Source: Methylomicrobium sp.
Lineage (GTDB): Bacteria; Pseudomonadota; Gammaproteobacteria; Methylococcales; Methylomonadaceae
DNA length: 17,039 nt
Direction of reading: 5' to 3'
Assembly: GCA_007135635.1 (NCBI GenBank)
Contig: SLIO01000265.1
Span: 1 to 17,039 of the forward strand
Positions 3,908-4,113 of this stretch are shown here, one piece after another (within the stretch, counting starts at the first letter, position 1; each line of letters starts with the position of its first letter). A program made the position numbers and the translations under genes. The notes under the pieces were generated by a model. It had not been told where the DNA came from and ran no database searches. It saw only the letters and a program-made list of their open reading frames with translations.

Positions 3908-3923
3908 TGCACAGAGCGTGCCA
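3908..3923 (-). promoter_or_regulatory. Sigma-54 promoter of glnK2-amt2
   Basis: On the minus strand the sequence is TGGCAC-GCTCT-GTGCA: 6/6 match to the -24 box and 4/5 to the -12 box (TTGCA). The essential GG and GC doublets are separated by exactly 10 bp. The predicted start near 3898 gives a leader of about 31 nt to glnK2. Confidence 0.85.
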
Positions 3924-3985
3924 TAAAGGTCAGTGATGTTTTTAACCCAAGATTTGGGCAGTTGCTGTAACTAGAGTTATTGTTT

Positions 3986-4002
3986 TGTATCAATATGGTG
4001 CA
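3986..4002. promoter_or_regulatory. NtrC enhancer box 1
   Basis: TGTATCA-ATA-TGGTGCA matches the NtrC dyad TGCACCA-N3-TGGTGCA at 12 of 14 positions, with a perfect right half. Its centre (3994) is about 96 bp from the predicted glnK2 start and 130 bp from the predicted glnA start, normal enhancer distances for NtrC. Confidence 0.75.
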
Positions 4003-4017
4003 ATATGCTTTAAAATA

Positions 4018-4034
4018 CGCACCATATTGAAGCT
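4018..4034. promoter_or_regulatory. NtrC enhancer box 2
   Basis: CGCACCA-TAT-TGAAGCT matches the NtrC dyad at 10 of 14 positions; the left half is strong and the right half weak. Its centre (4026) is 32 bp from that of box 1, about three helical turns, as in the enterobacterial glnA enhancer. The two strong inner halves form an 11-bp perfect inverted repeat (CAATATGGTGC 3991-4001, GCACCATATTG 4019-4029). Confidence 0.65.
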
Positions 4035-4078
4035 AAGTAAAGTGATCGGTCAGTGAGTGGTGTTGTTTTTATAATTGA

Positions 4079-4091
4079 GATCAACTAGTTG
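4079..4091 (+). promoter_or_regulatory. Possible IHF site before the glnA promoter
   Basis: GATCAACTAGTTG fits the IHF consensus WATCAANNNNTTR except at the first base. It lies between NtrC box 2 and the glnA -24 element, where IHF bending often assists sigma-54 activation. It sits only 6 bp from the -24 box, which is close, and no equivalent was seen on the glnK2 side, so this is tentative. Confidence 0.3.
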
Positions 4092-4097
4092 CTCATC

Positions 4098-4113
4098 TGG
4101 CATGTGAAGTGCT
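4098..4113 (+). promoter_or_regulatory. Sigma-54 promoter of glnA
   Basis: TGGCAT-GTGAA-GTGCT has the invariant GG and GC doublets exactly 10 bp apart, with 5/6 and 4/5 matches to the -24 and -12 boxes. The predicted start near 4124 implies an untranslated leader of about 330 nt before glnA. The divergent glnK2 promoter is its mirror image about the shared NtrC boxes. Confidence 0.75.

Follow-up and report, generated by a model that had tools for sequence, protein, structure and literature searches.

Divergent sigma-54 transcription units under the control of one activator, NtrC included, are already known. The E. coli hydrogenase-3 cluster is said, in the title of a 1990 paper by Lutz (listed among the references of PMC3844500), to contain divergent NtrA-dependent promoters, and their activator is FhlA; it resembles the locus described here in its divergent sigma-54 promoters but differs in its activator. 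For E. coli sgrR and sgrST-setA, both divergent units were concluded to be under the NtrC-dependent RpoN holoenzyme, and the same screen reported 11 NtrC sites in spacers between bidirectional units (PMC8743547); as that report describes them, sgrR and sgrST-setA are like our locus in being divergent NtrC/RpoN units, but the genes differ. Similarly, zraP and zraSR have divergent sigma-54 promoters under one bEBP, ZraR (PMC4987338), and here the likeness is that of one bEBP and divergent promoters, with a different activator and different genes. In Desulfovibrio vulgaris, one bEBP (DVU2106) synchronises the two divergent sigma-54 operons orp1 and orp2, and the IHF sites that separate each promoter from the bEBP sites were important in E. 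coli reporters, while deletion of ihf in D. vulgaris itself left orp expression unchanged (PMC3897727). E. coli glnA is described as having two high-affinity enhancer sites, low-affinity governor sites and a further promoter, glnAp1, in a paper that also cites, and in part doubts, the proposal that a rising NtrC level brings on glnAp2 before glnK (PMC3870243). We recognised no description, in the open-licence literature, of one NtrC enhancer common to glnK-amtB and glnA, although this is a weak absence. In this report, we describe a locus at which such an arrangement is probable.

The window, that is, the whole stretch of 17,039 nucleotides analysed here, comes from a genome of 2.78 Mb that is 79% complete, and carries, by Pfam and NCBIfam naming, amt1, glnK1, amt2 and glnK2 on the minus strand followed by glnA, ntrB and ntrC on the plus strand. 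The P-II gene glnK2 (3528..3863, minus strand; Pfam PF00543 and NCBIfam) and the ammonium transporter gene amt2 (2248..3504, minus strand; TIGR03644 above cut-off) thus diverge from the type I glutamine synthetase gene glnA (4455..5864, plus strand; Pfam and NCBIfam), beyond which lie ntrB (6659..7708, plus strand; NF008293 above cut-off) and ntrC (7704..9110, plus strand; TIGR01818 and NF008176 above cut-off), whose product is the presumed activator of both promoters; rpoN is present in all six genomes of the genus, the source genome included. A transcription unit of four genes, glnK2-amt2-glnK1-amt1, under the NtrC pair is not favoured, because a minus-strand hairpin followed by T6 was seen by eye between amt2 and glnK1 (2199-2227, where the terminator scanner reported the plus-strand version only) and because the window scan found no sigma-54 site scoring at least 9 upstream of glnK1; this suggests that glnK1-amt1 may form a separate transcription unit.

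Scoring the whole window against consensus sequences for sigma-54 and NtrC placed its two best sigma-54 sites back to back in the 592-bp intergenic region between glnK2 and glnA: TGGCACGCTCTGTGCA on the minus strand (3908..3923; 11/12), the predicted promoter of glnK2-amt2, and TGGCATGTGAAGTGCT on the plus strand (4098..4113; 10.5/12), pointing at glnA, the third score in the window being 10.0 at 9461. Both have the GG-N10-GC -24/-12 element, and their centres, 3915.5 and 4105.5, are 190 bp apart with a midpoint at 4010.5. Between them lie two NtrC-like dyads, neither assigned a strand, TGTATCAATATGGTGCA (3986..4002, centre 3994; 12.5/14) and the weaker CGCACCATATTGAAGCT (4018..4034, centre 4026; 10.5/14), which are 32 bp apart with a midpoint at 4010 and are the only boxes scoring at least 10 between the promoters, with no second set. 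The box distances are therefore 78.5 and 110.5 bp for the minus-strand promoter and 79.5 and 111.5 bp for the plus-strand promoter. The elements, centres and midpoints set out in the preliminary description were thus reproduced by the scan, and they stand well above chance: two boxes of at least 10 at a spacing of 30-34 bp arose in one of 3000 dinucleotide shuffles of the intergenic region, and sigma-54 sites of at least 10 at 0.04 per shuffled region. The perfect inverted repeat formed by the strong inner halves of the dyads also exists (3990..4030, no strand; arms 3990-4001 and 4019-4030), but it is 12 bp long and not 11 bp as had been claimed. Judged from its sequence, this region is probably a bidirectional sigma-54 control region in which one NtrC enhancer would serve both glnK2-amt2 and glnA.

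At nine of 10 enteric loci, the same scan recovered the known glnA arrangement, its boxes lying 89.5-90.5 and 121.5-122.5 bp from the promoter. As at enteric glnAp2, the window has two NtrC dyads 32 bp apart, in equal helical phase, upstream of a sigma-54 glnA promoter; in contrast, the enteric near box, at 89.5-90.5 bp, is one turn farther away, and those loci showed no minus-strand sigma-54 promoter facing outward with an NtrC pair. Outside the family, we compared 34 loci hand-picked from 80, and in 29 of the 34 a box lies upstream of a sigma-54 site. A possible second mirror was noticed in Shewanella oncorhynchi (L110, 4700-4900), where sigma-54-like sites on both strands are each 78.5 bp from a near box; the boxes are 41 bp apart, the minus-strand site matches poorly at -12, and the gene in that direction is a long way off.

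For comparison within the larger family, 121 genomes were sampled evenly, 111 of which have glnA, giving 108 upstream regions from 28 genera; G025, G081 and G084 were left out because the gene start or the upstream DNA was missing. The window's own genus (g1) is represented by six genomes and the sister genera g6 and g17 by three and one, and the three genera form one clade with support of 1.0 in a tree of 44 glnA, 31 ntrB and 31 ntrC sequences. A glnK gene lies immediately divergent from glnA throughout these genera (6/6, 3/3 and 1/1) and also in both genomes of g8, where it is nearest to glnK1. One NtrC pair between outward sigma-54 promoters, as proposed for the window, is kept in g1 (6/6), g6 (3/3) and g17 (1/1): in all 10 genomes the spacing between promoters is 188-191 bp and, relative to their midpoint, the dyad centres, located by exact half-sites, fall at -16 to -17 and +14.5 to +16. 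The strong halves of the dyads face each other in g1, are arranged in tandem in g6 and face outward in g17. What is conserved is therefore dyad position and not the palindrome, so that the inner inverted repeat fails as a conserved feature and, strong-half orientation changing between genera, was ruled out as a functional unit. That position is held while the sequence is turned over is the best evidence here for function.

Sequence conservation within g1 is more modest. The first g1 alignment had the G004 region reversed, and subsequent counts take the oriented region (L228). The pattern TGGTGC-N15-20-GCACCA occurs at a single place per genome in all six g1 genomes, and the reversed control gave none; invariant columns make up 53 of 66 in the elements and 131 of 193 in the rest (p 0.036, a modest excess), and dyad 2 alone, with 11 of 17 invariant columns, is not above its surroundings. 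Of the three g6 genomes, one passes the strict box-pair score and two fall short, and dyad 1 of L225 (g6) scores 8.0/14, barely beyond one strong half-site. All three g6 regions (L225, L226 and L233) have a third, governor-like NtrC half-site 56 bp to the right of the promoter midpoint, 39.5 bp from the centre of the glnA sigma-54 promoter.

The modest conservation at the level of g1 would, by itself, leave room for the symmetry to be chance or mere shared descent without function. We give this scarcely any credence, because dyad centres stay fixed while strong-half orientation changes between genera, because similar distances occur in other Gammaproteobacteria, and because shuffled DNA seldom or never produces such arrangements. 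A box pair enclosed by outward promoters turned up in 14 of 107 real regions (scores 37-45.5; window 44.5), whereas three of 2140 shuffles contained one when no score limit was set and none did at 36 or above; this search reached 750 bp upstream and thereby missed L227, which was recovered by a search for assemblies of a promoter and a box pair. Such assemblies numbered 80 in 297 kb of real sequence and none in 895 kb from three shuffles. Back-to-back sigma-54 pairs, with both sites scoring at least 9.5 and 150-320 bp apart, were spaced by 188-192 bp in 12 of 16 cases, and five shuffles gave none.

The distances themselves follow a rule. Among promoter-box pairs within 300 bp (165 promoters of at least 9.5, boxes of at least 11), the box is upstream in 117 and downstream in four. 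The near boxes of the 80 assemblies, for which a range of 60-95 bp was set after seeing the distance histogram, lie at 65.5-70.5 bp (19), 76.5-82.5 bp (57) and 87.5-91.5 bp (4), with nothing between. After within-genus repeats were collapsed to 65 values, which count both the near and the far box of a pair and are not all independent, the periodicity was best at about 10.75 bp (R 0.64); at 10.5 bp, R was 0.62 and was matched by none of 20000 uniform draws. NtrC boxes thus sit in helical phase with the promoter, the near box being about 68, 78 or 89 bp away. Helical phasing of sigma-54 enhancers is already known, as described in PMC4740811, and a few distances in the 34-locus comparison (96.5 and 145.5) fit the lattice poorly. 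The window's near-box distances of 78.5 and 79.5 bp agree with the lattice of the family, and the mirror symmetry arises because both promoters keep one phase rule around a single pair. Exact symmetry appears dispensable, since in g23, where a porin gene diverges from glnA, the promoters of two out of three genomes are 188 and 192 bp apart, yet the box pair is displaced by about one helical turn, its members lying 24.5-26.5 bp to the left of the midpoint and 5.5-6.5 bp to its right (scores 9-11.5); the outward-promoter search found nothing in the third. On these box positions, we rejected the idea that exact symmetry is required.

Other genera arrange the same parts differently, and this bears on whether the plus-strand promoter matters for glnA. 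The NtrC pair could serve glnK2-amt2 only, with the plus sigma-54 site a relic or weak and glnA transcribed from a proximal -10-like promoter. In g13, g14, g18 and g22, indeed, the promoter opposite the NtrC pair adjoining glnA is that of a divergent porin gene, and the glnA alignments show no sigma-54 site on the plus strand. A proximal element, AAAAAAATGATATCGTTA with the extended -10-like TGATATCGT (4382..4399, plus strand), which the preliminary description had overlooked, is also present in the window; by one pattern, an AAAAAAAATGGTATCGTTA-like, extended -10-like element starts 63-88 bp before glnA in 52 of the 108 regions, among them those of all 10 g1, g6 and g17 genomes, where its -10-like half is kept, and the element is seen in alignments too. 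In addition, the glnA leader is long and variable: some 340 bp separate glnA from the sigma-54 promoter, the predicted leader is about 330 nt, and its length differs widely among g1 members. Against a service to glnK2-amt2 only, the plus site is kept in the same 10 genomes, where it lies 188-191 bp away from its minus-strand counterpart and in phase with the NtrC boxes, and a plus sigma-54 site lies 124-148 bp before glnA in four of six g20 genomes, with a strong in-phase NtrC box in two, so that sigma-54 control of glnA is not limited to one clade and exists without sharing. All 10 lack TTTTTTAGTGGC, the proximal element's upstream partner, which 48 of the 108 regions contain; as an argument this is weak, because the partner is missing from many other genera too. 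On balance, we regard exclusive service to glnK2-amt2 as unlikely and prefer one NtrC enhancer acting in both directions. The proximal element would be a promoter of the sigma-70 type, and because it is conserved and nearer the gene, the sigma-54 promoter is probably not the only promoter of glnA. The order in the window, with sigma-54 distal and the -10-like element proximal, differs from the enteric order.

The roughly 330 nt from the predicted start to glnA could also accommodate a separate NtrC-dependent small or leader RNA, the plus promoter then not making glnA mRNA. We consider this very improbable: no terminator-like site was found in 3860-4460, the window has no Rfam match at gathering scores, which likewise led us to reject a riboswitch or other known RNA in the leader, and sequence conservation in the g1 alignment drops, by eye, after about 4145 while leader length varies. 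The leader also contains a repeat element (4234-4306) with many copies in its own and related genomes.

Enhancer sharing is not supported in g8, because its boxes are far off-centre (-44 and -63) and its plus-strand sigma-54 sites are poor (8.5 and 9.0). In L149 (g28), outward promoters 228 bp apart surround a box pair, but the plus-strand one falls on the proximal -10-like element and could be an artefact. Separate NtrC pairs accompany the divergent glnK and porin promoters in g29 (4/4) and g11 (3/7). Across the family, a gene for a BBP2-type porin neighbours glnA or glnK and in many cases has an NtrC/sigma-54 promoter to itself (L148, L157, L161, L215 and others), and its product is likely a nitrogen-regulated outer-membrane channel; BBP2 (PF07642) was identified in two tested proteins and Gcw_chp in a third, the rest being assigned by similarity. 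In L166 (g3), a gene for a Gcw_chp (PF09694) protein, at -1575 to -142 from glnA and behind a plus-strand sigma-54 site, replaces the porin. No BBP2 porin was found beside glnA in g1, g17 or the two g6 genomes searched (G082 of g6 being left out); these genomes have just a distant one elsewhere, which in g1 applies to five of six, none being found in the incomplete G000. The distant porin gene of the g17 genome (L270, 541-661) carries two NtrC boxes spaced by 31 bp, with an in-phase sigma-54 site at 81.5 and 112.5 bp from them, and its five g1 counterparts have a sigma-54-like site and no NtrC box of at least 10.5. It is plausible that the arrangement in g1, g6 and g17 originated by porin loss; intergenic DNA as a remnant of the lost porin was rejected (best E 1.2).

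An IHF-like site on the glnA side only had been suggested to bias direction. The sequence at 4079..4091 (plus strand) is a weak candidate with one mismatch, seen by eye in g1 only, with 12 of 13 positions invariant there, and not in g6 or g17. It is one of 32 such one-mismatch sites over both strands of the window, and since another at 3988 overlaps NtrC box 1, its restriction to the glnA side is not strictly true; a directional bias through IHF is not supported here. Matched firing strength in the two directions, also suggested earlier, is likewise unsupported, the sequence being compatible with promoter competition too. The orp1/orp2 region, as described, has IHF sites toward each promoter, unlike the window with its one weak candidate.

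We propose a model whereby, under nitrogen limitation, phosphorylated NtrC would bind the two dyads, whose centres (3994 and 4026) are separated by three helical turns, and form one oligomer, which by DNA looping would activate sigma-54 polymerase at either promoter: that of glnK2-amt2, whose centre is 78.5 bp to the left of its near box, or that of glnA, whose centre is 79.5 bp to the right of its own. The proximal -10-like element would give glnA a basal supply, and glnK2-amt2 (uptake and sensing) and glnA (assimilation) would answer to one threshold of active NtrC. NtrC binding, activation both ways and the coupling of thresholds are what we infer from the arrangement of sites. A shared enhancer would impose a single NtrC threshold, so that remaining differences must come from the core promoters, the loop or the leader, and the glnAp2-then-glnK order could not be produced through enhancer affinity. 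More tentatively, and with the odds against it, the NtrC oligomer may be a common limiting activator, so that uptake and sensing would be locked with glutamine synthetase to a single threshold in g1, g6 and g17 and competition would set their ratio. Separate enhancers let glnA and glnK-amtB fire at different levels of active NtrC, and sharing removes that freedom; if the proposal is true, a single threshold takes the place of the staggered order, glnA ahead of glnK, that has been proposed in E. coli, and the centred, one-turn-shifted and separate-enhancer variants form a natural test set for bacterial enhancer sharing. With the native variants of its relatives and their clear helical phasing, enhancer sharing and competition would be testable with native parts.
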